A DNA stretch of 64,000 bases from Longicatena caecimuris (GTDB lineage Bacteria; Bacillota_I; Bacilli_A; Erysipelotrichales; Erysipelotrichaceae), in contig NZ_SMBP01000001.1 of assembly GCF_004341945.1 (NCBI RefSeq), positions 24,001 through 88,000 of the forward strand. Direction: 5' to 3'. Below the pieces are notes generated by a model. That model had not been told where the DNA came from and did not search any database. It was given only the letters and a program-made list of their open reading frames with translations. Within the stretch, counting starts at the first letter, position 1. Each line of letters opens with the position of its first letter. Positions 7,898 to 58,358 of this stretch are shown here, piece by piece. Made by a program: the position numbers and the translations under genes.

Positions 7898-9028
7898 ATG
7901 ATCTATTTAGATTATGCATCCACAACGCCAATTCGCAAAGAAGTACGTGAAACATATCAAATGTTATTAGAAAACTATTATGGAAATAGTGATTCATTAC
8001 ATGATGTAGGAAGGGCTACAGCAAAATTAATGGAACAAAGCCGTGCAGCAATTGCACAGCTTTTCCATGTGCAAAAGGATGAAATTCTTTTTACTTCCTG
8101 TGCGAGTGAATCTAACAACTATGCAATGAAAGGGTTTGCTTGGAAAAATGCCCACAGAGGGAAGCATATCATCTCAACCTGTGTAGAACATTCCAGTATC
8201 CATAATGCATTAGAACAGTTAAAAGAAACGTTTGGCTTTGAAGTGACGTATCTTCCTGTTTATGCCGATGGAACGATACATTTGGAAGATCTAAAAAAGG
8301 CATTGCGCAAGGACACCATACTTGTATCGATGATGCTTGTGAACAATGAAACGGGGGCTATCAATCCTATTAAAGAATGTGCAGCATATGTACATGCCTA
8401 TTCGCGTGCCGTTTTTCATATGGATGGTGTACAAGGATTAGGAAAGATACCCATTTCTTTACACGATGTAGATATGGCAACCTTCTCAGCTCATAAAATT
8501 TATGGTTTGAAAGGAAGTGCCATTCTATATAAGAAACGCAATATTGAATTATTGCCGTTACTTAGTGGCGGTCAGCAAGAGCAAGGATTGCGCGCTGGAA
8601 CAAGTAATGCGCCAACAAATATCGTATTTGCCAAAACACTGCGTTTGGCATTAGAGGAACAGGAAAAAGCTTATCAGTATGTACAAGAATTAAACATATA
8701 TTTACGAAGGGAAATTGAAAATATGGAAGATATGATCATCAATAGCCCGGCGGATGCCTCTTGTTTCATATTGAATTTTTCTGATTTGAAGATTGGCAGT
8801 GAGGTAATGTTAAACGCATTAAATGCAAAGGGTTTTTGTGTTTCTGCCCAAAGTACTTGTTCAAGTAAAAGTAAGGCGATTTCCCATGTGCTACTGGCAA
8901 TGGGGTTAGGGGAAGTACGTGCGACGCATGCGATTCGTGTTTCCTTATCACATATGACAACAAAAGATGAAGTGGAAAAGTTTATAAAAGCACTAAAGGA
9001 GATCCATCATGACTATCGAACAAAATAA
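7898..9028 (+). CDS. Cysteine desulfurase (NifS/IscS family, thiI partner)
   Basis: 376 aa, PLP enzyme that removes sulfur from cysteine and carries it as a persulfide. The N-terminus MIYLDYASTTP is typical. The PLP lysine is Lys200 in SAHKIYG, and the persulfide-forming cysteine is Cys321 in STCSSKSK. It overlaps thiI by 20 bp, and its place between ezrA and thiI corresponds to NifZ of B. subtilis, which donates sulfur to ThiI. The most likely job is therefore supply of sulfur for 4-thiouridine in tRNA rather than general Fe-S assembly, though sequence alone cannot exclude the latter. Confidence 0.93.
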   Translation: MIYLDYASTTPIRKEVRETYQMLLENYYGNSDSLHDVGRATAKLMEQSRAAIAQLFHVQKDEILFTSCASESNNYAMKGFAWKNAHRGKHIISTCVEHSSIHNALEQLKETFGFEVTYLPVYADGTIHLEDLKKALRKDTILVSMMLVNNETGAINPIKECAAYVHAYSRAVFHMDGVQGLGKIPISLHDVDMATFSAHKIYGLKGSAILYKKRNIELLPLLSGGQQEQGLRAGTSNAPTNIVFAKTLRLALEEQEKAYQYVQELNIYLRREIENMEDMIINSPADASCFILNFSDLKIGSEVMLNALNAKGFCVSAQSTCSSKSKAISHVLLAMGLGEVRATHAIRVSLSHMTTKDEVEKFIKALKEIHHDYRTK

Positions 9029-10226
9029 ATTGACATATGACCATATTTTGGTCCGCTTTGGTGAGTTATCCACCAAAGGAAAAAATCGCAAAGATTTCAT
9101 TAAGCGATTACTGACGAATGTAAAAAATGCATTACGAGATTTTAATGAATTGACATACGAACGTACGCATGATCGTATGTATATCATGCTAAATGGTGAA
9201 GATCATGAAGCAGTAGCAAAACATTTGCAACAGGTGTTTGGCATTTCATCCTTTTCCTTTGCGGTGAAGGTGGCAAGTGATATTGAAGTCATCAAACAAA
9301 CATGCCTAGTGTTGGCAAAACAAAGTGATGCGCAAACCTTTAAGATTGAGGCTAGGAGAAGTTTTAAACAATTTCCTATGGTATCGGATGAAATAAATCG
9401 AGAAGTAGCTGGGGAAATTTTACGCAATACAGATATAAAGGTAAATGTAAGAGAACCACAGTTACGCATACAGATTGAATTGCATCAAGAGGCAACCTAT
9501 ATCATGACAGGAAAAATCAAAGGTAATGGTGGTTATCCGGTAGGAGTAGGCGGAAAAGCCTTGGTAATGTTAAGTGGTGGTATAGATTCACCAGTGGCTT
9601 GCTACATGACGATGAAACGTGGGGTCGCAATTGAATGTATTCACTATACATCTCCACCGTATACTTCACAGGCTGCACAGGATAAAGTGCTAGAATTAGC
9701 AAGAGCAATAGCTCCATATCAGGGACATATCCGCTTGCATATTATTCCTTTTACGGATTTACAGTTGGCCATTTATAAAAATTGTGATGAATCTTATGCA
9801 ATCACGATCATGCGCAGGATGATGTATCGTATTGCAGAACGTGTGGCCCAAAAGCAAAATTGCCTCGCAATCGTGAATGGAGAGAGCATTGGACAGGTGG
9901 CCAGTCAGACGTTGGAAAGCATGCAAACGATCAATTGTGTTACAGATATGCCGGTGATTCGTCCAGTTGCTTGTTTGGATAAATTAGAAATTATTGATAT
10001 TTCACAAAAAATCGGAACATATGATATATCGATACAGCCATTTGAAGATTGCTGTACGATATTTACACCAAAAAATCCGGTTACCAAACCAACGAAGCAT
10101 CGTGCAGAACGTTTAGAAGGACGATTTGATTTTACGTCTCTTATAGAAGATTGTATTGCTCGCATGGAAAGTGTGGATATATATCCAGGCCGTGACATGA
10201 TAGAAGAAAACGAAAATATTTTTTAG
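9009..10226 (+). CDS. thiI: tRNA 4-thiouridine synthase ThiI
   Basis: 405 aa. It activates U8 of tRNA with ATP and inserts sulfur. An N-terminal ferredoxin-like/THUMP region (about residues 1-165) precedes the PP-loop ATPase domain with the signature SGGIDS at 189-194. The C-terminal rhodanese domain of the enterobacterial enzyme is absent, as usual in Firmicutes, so sulfur must come directly from the overlapping cysteine desulfurase. The Cys pair in FEDCCTIFTP lies in the catalytic domain. Whether this copy also serves thiamin synthesis cannot be judged here. Confidence 0.95.
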   Translation: MTIEQNKLTYDHILVRFGELSTKGKNRKDFIKRLLTNVKNALRDFNELTYERTHDRMYIMLNGEDHEAVAKHLQQVFGISSFSFAVKVASDIEVIKQTCLVLAKQSDAQTFKIEARRSFKQFPMVSDEINREVAGEILRNTDIKVNVREPQLRIQIELHQEATYIMTGKIKGNGGYPVGVGGKALVMLSGGIDSPVACYMTMKRGVAIECIHYTSPPYTSQAAQDKVLELARAIAPYQGHIRLHIIPFTDLQLAIYKNCDESYAITIMRRMMYRIAERVAQKQNCLAIVNGESIGQVASQTLESMQTINCVTDMPVIRPVACLDKLEIIDISQKIGTYDISIQPFEDCCTIFTPKNPVTKPTKHRAERLEGRFDFTSLIEDCIARMESVDIYPGRDMIEENENIF

Positions 10227-10254
10227 TATAAGATGTTTATCCTCACCCATACTA
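10225..10254 (+). promoter_or_regulatory. Sigma-G-like promoter
   Basis: CATACTA fits the sigma-G -10 consensus (CATAnTA) exactly, and AGTATA lies 17 bp upstream (4 of 6 to TGmATA). It directly precedes the SASP-like gene. The same CATACTA -10 occurs before spoVAC in this window. Confidence 0.5.
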
Positions 10255-10273
10255 TTTGTGTGAGGTGATAAAA

Positions 10274-10519
10274 ATGGAAAGAAGAAAACAGTTTCAGAAT
10301 GAGAAACAGGATCAAGATTTGTACCAGTACGAAATGGGTATTGAATTAGGTGCAGATGTTGAAGCTGAAAAACGTAATCATCGTAATGAATACGATCGTG
10401 AACATTCTTCTTCTGATTTCAAAAATGATTTCAACAACAACAATCAGCAGAGAAATCGTAACCAGAATCAGCAGAACAATCGTTTCAACAACAGCAATTC
10501 CAACAACAACCAGCGTTAA
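10274..10519 (+). CDS. Small Asn/Gln-rich protein, candidate spore (SASP-like) protein
   Basis: 81 aa, strongly hydrophilic. The N-terminal half holds a helix-like segment DLYQYEMGIELGAD; the C-terminal half is low complexity (runs of N, Q, R, S). The helix resembles the conserved N-terminal part of alpha/beta-type small acid-soluble spore proteins (KYEIAxELG...GAD), including YExxxE as in the site cut by germination protease GPR. The second conserved SASP helix is missing. Position supports the idea: in B. subtilis sspA lies next to thiI. A sigma-G-like promoter precedes it. GAGGTGA is 5 bp before the chosen ATG. Family membership is inference; it could be another spore or lineage-specific protein. 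Confidence 0.6.
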   Translation: MERRKQFQNEKQDQDLYQYEMGIELGADVEAEKRNHRNEYDREHSSSDFKNDFNNNNQQRNRNQNQQNNRFNNSNSNNNQR

Positions 10520-10555: not shown

Positions 10556-10588
10556 ATCATCAGAAAGCTCTGGTGGCTTTTTTTCTTT
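10556..10588 (+). terminator. Terminator
   Basis: CATCAG pairs with CTGGTG (one G-U) or AAAGC with GCTTT, followed by a T run. It separates the SASP-like gene from recJ. Confidence 0.65.
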
Positions 10589-55158: not shown

Positions 55159-55188
55159 TACATAATGCAAGAAACGTTGTGCATACTA
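55159..55188 (+). promoter_or_regulatory. Sigma-G-like promoter of the spoVA genes
   Basis: TACATA (5 of 6 to TGmATA), 17 bp, CATACTA (exact fit to CATAnTA), 22 bp before the spoVAC ATG. spoVA is sigma-G controlled in B. subtilis. Confidence 0.6.
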
Positions 55189-55209
55189 GCGTTATAAAGG
55201 AGGATGCAT

Positions 55210-55650
55210 ATGAATCAGAAAAAAATAAAAGATACGGCGAAAAAACATGCGCCAAAATCACATTATGTGAAAAACGAAGTGATTGCTTTTCTCAGCGGTG
55301 GAGCTTTGGCAATCGCTGCTCAATTCGTTATGATGGCATATCAAACACTATTGGGCGTTGATGAAAAAACAGCTATTTCGATGACCGTAGTAACGGTAAT
55401 CTTAATTACTGCGATTTTAACTGGTTTGGGTATTTATGATAAATTTGCCCAGGTTTGTGGAGCAGGTTTATTTATTCCTATTTCCGGGTTTGCGAATTCT
55501 TTAACTGCTTGTGCTTTAGAAGGAAAAAGTGAAGGACTAATTTATGGTATTGGATCCAATATGTTTAAGCTTGCCGGTTCTGTATTAACATATGGCATTG
55601 CCTCAGCCTTTGTATTTGGGATGATTCGTTTTATCTTATTTGGAGGATAA
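55210..55650 (+). CDS. spoVAC: Stage V sporulation protein AC
   Basis: 146 aa with four membrane helices, part of the channel that moves dipicolinic acid into and out of the spore; SpoVAC is thought to be mechanosensitive. The block VIAFLSGGALAIAAQFVMMAY and the loop AGLFIPISGFANSLTACALEGKSEGLIYGIGSNMFKLAGSV are typical. The ATG with AAAGGAGG 6 bp upstream was chosen. The stop is immediately followed by spoVAD. Confidence 0.95.
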   Translation: MNQKKIKDTAKKHAPKSHYVKNEVIAFLSGGALAIAAQFVMMAYQTLLGVDEKTAISMTVVTVILITAILTGLGIYDKFAQVCGAGLFIPISGFANSLTACALEGKSEGLIYGIGSNMFKLAGSVLTYGIASAFVFGMIRFILFGG

Positions 55651-55652
55651 TG

Positions 55653-56645
55653 ATGGCAATTATTCAATTTCATGATGTCTATGTGACATCACGCTCTGCC
55701 GTAGGTGGCCCTGTTGAGGCAAAAGGTCCATTAGCAGAGCAGTTTGATAAATGTTATGAAGATACCTACTGTGGTGAAGATTGCTTTGAAAAAGCAGAAC
55801 GTCGTTTATTATATGACGCAAGTGATATTGCTTTACGAAAAGCGCAGCTCCAAGTTTCTGATTTGGATGTGCTGGTAGGTGGCGATTTATTGAATCAGTT
55901 AATGAGCTCGCATTATTTTGCGAAAGATCTTCAAGTACCTTTTATTGGTATGTATGCAGCATGTGCTACAAGTTCATTGGTCATTGGCACTGCGGCCATG
56001 TGGATAGAACATCATATGGCATCTCATGCAATGGCTTTTACCAGCTCACATACAGCTGCAGCAGAACGTCAATTTCGCTTTCCTAATGAATATGGCATAC
56101 AGAAAAAAGATACGACAACGACAACTGTCTGTGGCGCCGGTGCTATTGTCTTAGGCACAAAGCCATCGAACATCAAAGTCACTGCTTTTGTTCCTGGTAA
56201 GATTGTTGATTGGAATCACACCGATGCGAATGATATGGGATTAGCGATGGCTCCAGCTGCTTATGATACGTTGACGACGTATTTAAAAGAGAGTAAGCAA
56301 AAGATTACCGATTTTGATCGCATTGTGACCGGTGATTTATCGCAAGTTGGCTTTGCGTTTCTAACGGACTTATTAACGCAGGAACAATATGAAATAGAAA
56401 ATCGGTTATCTGATTGTGGATTGATGATCTATGATAATAGTAAACAGGATGTGTTTTGTGGTGGTAGTGGTTGCGCATGTAGCATGTGTGTATCTATGAG
56501 TGATTTGTTAAATCGTTTGGAACAAGGGGAATATCATCGTATCATGGTCTTAGCAACGGGTGCTTTATTATCACCCGTCGCTGTACAACAAAAAGGAACG
56601 ATTCCCTGTATTGCTCATGGCATCGTTTACGAAAGGAGTGAATGA
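55653..56645 (+). CDS. spoVAD: Stage V sporulation protein AD
   Basis: 330 aa, thiolase/ketosynthase-like fold that binds dipicolinic acid on the inner side of the channel. VYVTSRSAVGGPVEAKGPLAEQFDK, GGDLLNQLMSSHYFAKDLQVPFIGMYAACATSS and GGSGCACS match the family. The ATG with GGAGGA 5 bp upstream is preferred to the one a codon earlier. It is followed by spoVAE. Confidence 0.95.
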   Translation: MAIIQFHDVYVTSRSAVGGPVEAKGPLAEQFDKCYEDTYCGEDCFEKAERRLLYDASDIALRKAQLQVSDLDVLVGGDLLNQLMSSHYFAKDLQVPFIGMYAACATSSLVIGTAAMWIEHHMASHAMAFTSSHTAAAERQFRFPNEYGIQKKDTTTTTVCGAGAIVLGTKPSNIKVTAFVPGKIVDWNHTDANDMGLAMAPAAYDTLTTYLKESKQKITDFDRIVTGDLSQVGFAFLTDLLTQEQYEIENRLSDCGLMIYDNSKQDVFCGGSGCACSMCVSMSDLLNRLEQGEYHRIMVLATGALLSPVAVQQKGTIPCIAHGIVYERSE

Positions 56646-56646
56646 T

Positions 56647-56997
56647 ATGGTTTTTGTCTATGCCTTTTTAGTCTGTGGCGGTATTTCATTAGCAGGACAA
56701 CTTTTATATGATCATACCAAATTAACGGCCGGACATATCACTTCTTTATTTGTGGCTATCGGAGCAGCTTTGGACACCTTTGGTATTTATGATTGGCTGT
56801 TAAAGGTTGCTGGTATGGGGGCAAGTCTTCCTATTACTAGTTTTGGACATAGTTTGATTCATGGGGCATTAGCACAGGCCCAAAAAGAAGGACTGCTCGG
56901 TATTTTACTTGGCATGTTTGATTTAACTGCTGCCGGTATCACGAGTGGTATTTTGTTTGCTTTCTTTGTAGCCATTTTGTGCAAACCAAAATCATGA
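56647..56997 (+). CDS. spoVAE: Stage V sporulation protein AE
   Basis: 116 aa, three to four membrane helices (SpoVAEb type). FVYAFLVCGGISLAGQLLYDHTKLTAGHITSLFVAIGAALDTFGIYDWLLKVAGMGASLPITSFGHSLIHG is the family pattern (quoted in parts: GGISLAGQLLYDHTKL and ITSFGHSLIHGA). AAGGAG lies upstream of the ATG. The stop overlaps spoVAF. Confidence 0.93.
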   Translation: MVFVYAFLVCGGISLAGQLLYDHTKLTAGHITSLFVAIGAALDTFGIYDWLLKVAGMGASLPITSFGHSLIHGALAQAQKEGLLGILLGMFDLTAAGITSGILFAFFVAILCKPKS

Positions 56998-58358
56998 AGG
57001 AACAGCTACAAGCACGCCTACAACAGTTAACGATAGAGTTGTCTGATTCCTTTGATGTTGTAAAACGGCATTTGCAGATTGAAGGACATGATGCGATCTT
57101 GCTTTTTCTTTCTTCTTTATCGGATAGTCAACTGATTTCCAATCTGGTAGAAGGCTTGACGATAACGGCAACTAACCATGTGGAACTGACCTTTTATCCT
57201 GGCTCGGTGGAAAAGGTGAAGGACCCCAAAAAAGCAGTAATTAACATGCTTAGTGGGCAATGCTTAGTATTGTTGGATAGTTCTCAATATTATTTTTGCA
57301 TTGAAACAAGACATTATCCATCGCGTAGCAATGCAGAACCAAGTGTTGAAAGAAGCGTGCGCGGAGCACATGATGGTTTTGTTGAAAATGTCATTTTAAA
57401 TGTCGGCCTAATACGTCGGCGCATCCGTGATCCTCGCCTTAGTGTCATTATGCATAAAGAAGGAGTAAAAACACGCACAGATGTTGCTTATGTGTATATC
57501 AAACATCTAGTAGATCCAGATGTGCTCAGCGATTTTGAAACACGAATGAAACAATTGAGTGAAACAGAAATTTTAAGTGAGCGTAATTTGGTTGAACAGT
57601 TATATGGAAAAACTTTAAATCCATATCCACATGTTCGCTATACAGAACGTCCGGATATCTGTGCTATTCACTTATTGCAAGGATATTTGGTTGCCTTGGT
57701 GGATAATGCGCCGACAGCCGTTATTTTACCTACCACCTTTTTTGAACAAACGAAACAAATTGAAGAGTATACACAAACGACTATTGTCGCATCTTTTACA
57801 CGTATCCTACGCCTGATTGGCATTCTGTTTTCCTTATACTTGTTGCCATTATGGATAGCCCTTGTCATAGATCAAAATCCAACCATGCTGCACTTACCTA
57901 TGAAAAATGTACACTTATTTACATTTGGCTTTCAAATTATTTTGGCAGATATTGTGGTGGAATGGATACGGCAATCGCTCATCCATACACCGACGATCTT
58001 ATCGAGCATCATGAGCTTTATCGCTGTTTTTGTATTAGGGGATATGGCAATAGAGCTAGGTGCCTATACCAAAGAAATTCTAATTATGGTGGCGTTGTGT
58101 AACATTGGCAATCTGTTAACTCCATCTTATGAGTTATCATTGGCTAATAAAGTATTTCGTATTTTTATTGGCGCATTAGCTTTATTCTTTGGACAAACTG
58201 GCTTCTGTTTCGGGGTATTTCTACATATTGTCGTTTTAATGTCTACGAAAACGATTAAATTTCCTTATTTATATCCATTGATACCATTCTCATATAAAGA
58301 ATGTAGTCGTATCTTATTTGGTTCTCCGATTCGCGTAAATAAAGCGAGAAAAAAATAA
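56994..58358 (+). CDS. spoVAF: Stage V sporulation protein AF / GerA-type germination protein
   Basis: 454 aa. A soluble N-terminal half (about 1-250) with the GerA-family block RSNAEPSVERSVRGAHDGFVENVILNVGLIRRRIRD leads to five membrane helices (about 265-440). SpoVAF resembles germinant receptor A subunits and works with the SpoVA channel during germination. The gene overlaps spoVAE by ATGA. spoVAA and spoVAB, which begin the B. subtilis operon, are absent here. Confidence 0.9.
   Translation: MKEQLQARLQQLTIELSDSFDVVKRHLQIEGHDAILLFLSSLSDSQLISNLVEGLTITATNHVELTFYPGSVEKVKDPKKAVINMLSGQCLVLLDSSQYYFCIETRHYPSRSNAEPSVERSVRGAHDGFVENVILNVGLIRRRIRDPRLSVIMHKEGVKTRTDVAYVYIKHLVDPDVLSDFETRMKQLSETEILSERNLVEQLYGKTLNPYPHVRYTERPDICAIHLLQGYLVALVDNAPTAVILPTTFFEQTKQIEEYTQTTIVASFTRILRLIGILFSLYLLPLWIALVIDQNPTMLHLPMKNVHLFTFGFQIILADIVVEWIRQSLIHTPTILSSIMSFIAVFVLGDMAIELGAYTKEILIMVALCNIGNLLTPSYELSLANKVFRIFIGALALFFGQTGFCFGVFLHIVVLMSTKTIKFPYLYPLIPFSYKECSRILFGSPIRVNKARKK

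Follow-up and report, generated by a model that had tools for sequence, protein, structure and literature searches.

A predicted SASP-like forespore protein downstream of thiI in GPR-encoding Erysipelotrichaceae

What do the spore formers of the Erysipelotrichaceae keep at the place where related bacteria keep the gene for a SASP, a type of protein that usually protects spore DNA? A review holds that alpha/beta SASPs seem to be present in every endospore former (PMC7985256), whereas a 2024 survey of 2650 genomes reports the Erysipelotrichales to be without essentially all SASPs, though some of them make spores (PMC10868615). The locus described here lies in a 64-kb stretch of Longicatena caecimuris DNA (the window; 64,000 nucleotides), for which an earlier, sequence-only reading had proposed a reduced or novel spore protein on the basis of three hints: a SASP-like helix, a position next to thiI, and a sigma-G-like promoter element. 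All three have held as far as sequence analysis goes, and they suggest a remodelled SASP rather than a standard one. A literature search of incomplete coverage found no paper describing this protein family.

The open reading frame noted after thiI is indeed present; it starts with ATG, 47 nt separate it from the thiI stop codon, and its 81-aa translation is MERRKQFQNEKQDQDLYQYEMGIELGADVEAEKRNHRNEYDREHSSSDFKNDFNNNNQQRNRNQNQQNNRFNNSNSNNNQR. The surrounding genes run in the order rpsD, ezrA, iscS, thiI, the 81-aa gene and recJ, where EzrA and ThiI were identified by Pfam matches and rpsD, iscS and recJ were named by reading. Because a terminator-like hairpin follows it, the 81-aa gene looks like a single-gene unit. 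The features of the locus are collected in Table 1.

Table 1. Features at the thiI locus, in window positions (the arrow in the GPR-like site marks the presumed scissile bond).
Feature	Position	Strand	Evidence
thiI, upstream neighbour; anchors the conserved iscS-thiI-SASP order	9009..10226	+	PF02568/PF22025/PF02926 matches; order common to orthologous and SASP loci
-35 element GTATA, overlapping the thiI stop codon	10226..10230	+	sigma-G-type promoter; pattern conserved in orthologous loci
-10 element CATACTA, same sigma-G-type promoter	10248..10254	+	conserved in orthologous loci
Ribosome-binding site (RBS) GAGGTG	10262..10267	+	conserved within the protein family
Derived SASP-like forespore protein (predicted), 81 aa	10274..10519	+	ORF call, family profile searches
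Conserved core helix, residues 15-33 (DLYQYEMGIELGADVEAEK)	10316..10372	+	family alignments, hhalign to alpha/beta SASP helix 1, AlphaFold2 helix
GPR-like site YE↓MGIE, residues 19-24	10328..10345	+	pairs with YE↓IANE in canonical SASPs
Asn/Gln/Arg/Ser-rich tail, predicted disordered, replacing SASP linker and helix 2	10406..10516	+	59% N+Q; low-pLDDT region that lacks secondary structure in the model
Intrinsic-terminator-like hairpin and T run	10557..10584	+	2 such in region vs shuffle mean 0.2

Profile searches gave no Pfam or NCBIfam match for the 81-aa protein and likewise nothing useful for the divergent members of its family, and no curated SASP model matches the protein or its relatives. 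The proposed likeness to alpha/beta SASPs did not carry over to the profile PF00269, which has no match in the 81-aa protein and none genome-wide at E≤0.001. In the Erysipelotrichaceae only one sequence exceeds the PF00269 cut-off, a SASP of clostridial type encoded on a 3.4-kb contig of a metagenome bin that is 83% complete (G027), and it was set aside as probable contamination. The gamma SASP profile PF04259 is absent from the whole order, the 81-aa protein and its relatives included; by profile test, the family thus belongs to neither PF00269 nor PF04259. Spore photoproduct lyase (TIGR04070), looked for as an indirect sign of DNA binding of the SASP type, was above the cut-off in no genome of the Erysipelotrichaceae or of f2, a sister family in the order that is probably Coprobacillaceae. 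A search for a phage origin of the 81-aa gene gave no match. Elsewhere in the class, three genomes of another family, f21 (G380, G404 and G427), have weak, partial PF00269 matches, some of them two per ORF, which are possibly other remodelled SASPs.

In the sister family f2, 33 sampled genomes encode canonical SASPs, and the SASP gene lies directly after iscS-thiI in nearly all of the loci fetched. Elsewhere in the class, too, most of the fetched SASP loci adjoin thiI, those of genomes of ~1 Mb among them. Since the SASPs of the sister family and most of those in the class sit there, we regard the place after thiI as the ancestral SASP position, which bears out its use as a hint. The Erysipelotrichaceae hold a protein of the 81-aa type at the place where their relatives keep a canonical SASP.

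A first search of 116 Erysipelotrichaceae genomes found relatives in 19, among them Amedibacillus dolichus, Merdibacter massiliensis, Longicatena sp., Traorella massiliensis and Dielma fastidiosa, and directly downstream of thiI in all but a few. GPR, the germination protease by which SASPs are digested, was found in 32 sampled genomes of the family, and the first profile matched relatives in 22 of these. In the remaining GPR-positive genomes the DNA after thiI encodes diverged versions (FDMEMANELGARY, FQYEMGLEF, YKYELAYELGADY, FEYEMGVQY) with a similar promoter and RBS; eight genomes that the first profile had not matched have a member after thiI. The widened profile finds a member in 31 of the 32 at E≤1e-3, several of these members having been rows of that profile itself. 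The missing one is G193, an 86%-complete genome in which no thiI was found. In G020 an inserted gene separates thiI from the member, which starts 1.5 kb further downstream and retains CATAATA and the RBS. Orthologues after thiI in related genomes, which the sequence-only reading had looked to for support, are thus found in nearly all GPR-positive Erysipelotrichaceae, and orthologues in non-sporulating relatives, which it had named as evidence against a spore protein, did not turn up: at E≤1e-3 the widened profile matches no member in the GPR-negative genomes, nor in those of f2. Two GPR-negative genomes that were inspected have an unrelated gene directly after thiI, and among 247 genomes of the class there is no family match outside the Erysipelotrichaceae.

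This is a real conserved gene family and not an isolated ORF. A chance or non-coding reading frame, for which the low-complexity tail and the lack of a database family could be cited, is refuted by the conservation of core, start, RBS and promoter across many genera, and we give it practically no credence. The co-occurrence with GPR is strong (Fisher p < 1e-26, even when the number of GPR-negative genomes, assumed to be ~118, is set conservatively at 80), a value that is overstated since related genomes are not independent. As GPR is a marker of sporulation in general, the co-occurrence argues for a role in spores and not for cleavage of the family by GPR. The source genome itself encodes GPR beside a SpoIIP-like gene (named by reading), as well as SpoVAC and SpoVAD, and is therefore a plausible spore former. 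The protease also differs between the two families: Erysipelotrichaceae GPRs are shorter, many of them ~280-310 aa (G000:C1:245946-246572, L121, and others), and their profile match breaks between ~240 and ~300, while f2 GPRs match to ~338. In the Erysipelotrichaceae, protease and substrate may have changed in concert.

The promoter proposed earlier held up. CATACTA, taken to be a sigma-G -10 element, is present and conserved across genera, but on its own it is close to chance, since 7.4 copies would be expected in the window and 9 are present, and the -35 element GTATA, at 17-nt spacing, had been missed. The resulting layout, GTATA-N17-CATACTA, is like that of the B. subtilis sigma-G consensus. 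Genome-wide, the exact -35/-10 pattern has 11 matches versus 24 for a reversed control, and this lack of enrichment makes it uninformative alone; it is conservation across the family, not CATACTA by itself, that gives weight to the promoter. Exact CATACTA occurs in 15 of 29 orthologous loci at a nearly constant distance to the start codon, and at most one mismatch is seen in 24 of the 29 (500 rounds of shuffling gave a mean of 1.05 and at most 5), while 26 of the 29 have a perfect G[TCA]AT[AG] -35 element 17-18 nt from the -10. The sigma-G-type promoter of the family is conserved across genera, and, judged by promoter sequence, the 81-aa gene would share with alpha/beta SASP genes a sigma-G-dependent forespore promoter.

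CATACTA was also correctly read ahead of spoVAC, where it lies at 55182-55188, 15 nt before the ORF (55204; SpoVAC by Pfam). This ORF opens a row of genes (window 55204-58358) in which spoVAC and spoVAD are followed by spoVAE- and spoVAF/gerA-like genes, the latter two named by reading. Another exact GTATA-N17-CATACTA stands just before a 56-aa ORF, ARKKYRPGMNCEKTGKYACYDANGNEMYRDIDVEKDRRFPPSQEEGCYYEEQ (G000:C12:5700-5728, L122), which is a candidate second forespore gene. At the 81-aa gene itself a dyad, CCTCAC..GTGAGG (window 10226-10270), spans the -10 element, its right arm lying at the RBS, and a similar dyad, CTGACAC..GTGTCAG, lies upstream of f2 SASPs (L025, L029, L038). Its occurrence is patchy, with a mean longest stem of 3.57 versus a shuffle mean of 2.02 (sd 0.38), and it is perhaps an operator or a translational element.

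The remaining hint, a SASP-like helix with a YExxxE site of the type cut by GPR, found statistical support in a profile comparison. In the main clade of the family the core [DN]L[YF]Q[YF]EMGx[ED]LGA[DE]xE is nearly invariant, in contrast to length and tail, which vary freely; the core reads YEMGIELGAD in the 81-aa protein and EMANELG in divergent members, and it aligns with helix 1 of SASPs. When the family profile is compared with 87 canonical SASPs by hhalign, dlyQyEMGxELGAd is paired with dQmKyEIAnEFGVnL at a probability of 49% and a P value of 1.7e-4, and the score of 27.2 is above that of all 300 column shuffles (maximum 15.5) and of the reversed profile (12.4). In this register, YE↓MGIELG pairs with YE↓IANEFG of the canonical SASPs, in which EIA is the sequence cleaved by GPR (PMC8452069). 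The scissile motif would be E↓M-G in the 81-aa protein (E↓MGIELG) and E↓MANELG in divergent members, against E↓I-A in canonical SASPs and a general pattern of E↓(I/F)A.E(F/L)G; the L082 and L090 members come nearest to the canonical site, with EMANELG versus EIANEFG. For the clade of the 81-aa protein an alternative register, EFGVNLGAD against EMGIELGAD, is possible. The AlphaFold2 model has a single helix at residues 6-45 followed by disorder, and a Foldseek search with this model of low confidence (mean pLDDT 64.5) gave no match.

The homology to SASPs spans ~20 residues and comes from one statistical comparison, and with single sequences a SASP HMM scores weakly above shuffles (median 3.7 vs -1.2 bits). 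Because these single-sequence scores are weak, we rest the case for descent from a SASP on profile, locus and promoter together. It might be argued instead that the SASP was lost and that its sigma-G promoter and its place passed to a small forespore gene of unrelated origin, the likeness to helix 1 having arisen by convergence through recognition by GPR. The likeness is confined to the very helix that holds the protease site, where convergence could yield a match, and no standard HMM recognises the protein; however, the match reaches beyond the pentapeptide, and gene position, promoter type and single-gene layout are the same as those of a canonical SASP gene. We therefore find such a non-homologous replacement unlikely.

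The Asn/Gln/Arg/Ser-rich tail described in place of a second SASP helix was confirmed, with 59% N+Q across the last 37 residues of the 81-aa protein. The canonical linker and helix 2 (NGSVGGEITKRLV), whose residues are invariant among the SASPs of the sister family, are absent from the alignments of every family member. The tails themselves differ widely: some members (L005, L007, L009, L011, L088) have short, ordinary tails that are not Asn/Gln-rich, and in G052 (L067 1495-1870) two consecutive ORFs look like a split protein, the first coding for the helix and the second, which begins at a start of its own, for an Asn/Gln-rich stretch with the GPR-like NEFAND. The 218-aa protein of L083, from one genus, has a tandem-repeat tail with one TEFGQE and three SEFSQE, one per repeat; the shuffle expectation for GPR-like sites in this tail is 0.0045, with the three repeat copies counting as one event. 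Several such sites are found only in L083 and L084, one extra site occurs in L086, and the 81-aa protein has a single one. These extra sites lend support to GPR digestion as part of the function, directly for these lineages only. They also bear on the idea that the family serves sporulation in a way unlinked to GPR or DNA, for instance as a structural protein of the core or of the coat interface, and merely shares the promoter. Sigma-G does drive many non-SASP genes, but sites have multiplied in one genus, GPR is retained in genomes without a recognised alpha/beta or gamma SASP substrate, and the co-occurrence with GPR is near-perfect, although this last point is not decisive as GPR marks sporulation generally. 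We judge such an unlinked protein to be quite improbable.

We thus consider the 81-aa protein to be, probably, a SASP-derived, sigma-G-driven and GPR-cut spore protein that is not a standard member of its group. The gene would be a remodelled descendant of an alpha/beta SASP gene, kept at the ancestral place after thiI, in which helix 1 and the GPR site were retained, the glycine-rich linker and helix 2 were lost, and a variable tail, often Asn/Gln/Arg-rich, was gained. Promoter and gene co-occurrence suggest that sigma-G RNA polymerase makes the protein in the forespore, from where it would be stored in the spore core; site and co-occurrence further suggest that GPR may cut YE↓MGIE at Glu20-Met21 during germination, so that the amino acids could be reused. 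By analogy with the gamma-type SASPs, which are regarded as amino-acid reserves (PMC8452069), we tentatively propose that the main role is that of a GPR-degradable protein of the spore core and an amino-acid reserve, a proposal to which we give slightly less than even weight. Since several members are without the Asn/Gln-rich tail, a reserve would not account for every protein of the family.

The main rival concerns function and is compatible with descent from a SASP: the family might still protect DNA, with helix 1 self-associating, the basic N-terminus and the Arg-containing tail coating the spore DNA through a mode of binding other than the canonical one, and GPR releasing it at germination. 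We regard this as the main rival because the 20-residue core is conserved far beyond what a protease site alone needs; in addition, the protein replaces the only SASP at its locus across a family of predicted spore formers, and the net charge of the tail is +3 to +7 in many members. On the other hand, that charge is -3 to 0 in several, the pI of the family ranges from 4.9 to 9.9 versus a median of 9.5 for canonical SASPs, the conserved helix is acidic, and canonical minor-groove binding of DNA is unlikely since helix 2 is missing. DNA protection of this kind is possible in our view, if somewhat doubtful. Returning to the remodelled SASP, a broader proposal would be that Erysipelotrichaceae spore formers lack any canonical alpha/beta SASP, that their sole descendant of it combines helix 1 with a tail resembling the gamma type but no longer has the canonical half that binds DNA, and that their spore DNA may be guarded by a new mode of binding or by something else entirely; we see the chances of this as evenly balanced.

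The conflict in the literature would be partly resolved in this way. Both statements would need amending, since the sister family has ordinary SASPs and the Erysipelotrichaceae have a remodelled one missed by standard models (cf. PMC7985256, PMC10868615). As a natural experiment, the family could also show what each half of a SASP contributes, protection of DNA or the provision of a protein reserve released by GPR. As nearly all GPR-positive Erysipelotrichaceae genomes carry a member, it may in addition serve as a marker for sporulation-capable gut species.

Two known types invite comparison. With the alpha/beta type (SspA/B/C/D, PF00269; structure 2Z3X) the family shares the locus after thiI, a sigma-G-type promoter, a single small gene, occurrence with gpr, and, going by the profile alignment, a likely helix 1 with the GPR-site-like YE↓MGIE. 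It differs in having no PF00269 match and no N-terminal KLVVPGA, in the absence from every member of the NGSV linker and the helix-2 GGEITKRLV that are invariant in the sister family, and in a tail that varies in both length and composition. Gamma-type SASPs (SspE, PF04259) have been reported from Bacillus/Bacillales only (PMC7985256, PMC3533761). The family resembles them in part, through Asn/Gln-rich disordered sequence with GPR-like sites, but it has no PF04259 match, and the 81-aa protein has one site only, a long conserved helix, and the gene position of an alpha/beta SASP. SspE is built of repeats, an architecture that the L083 protein, with its one SEFSQE per repeat, resembles.
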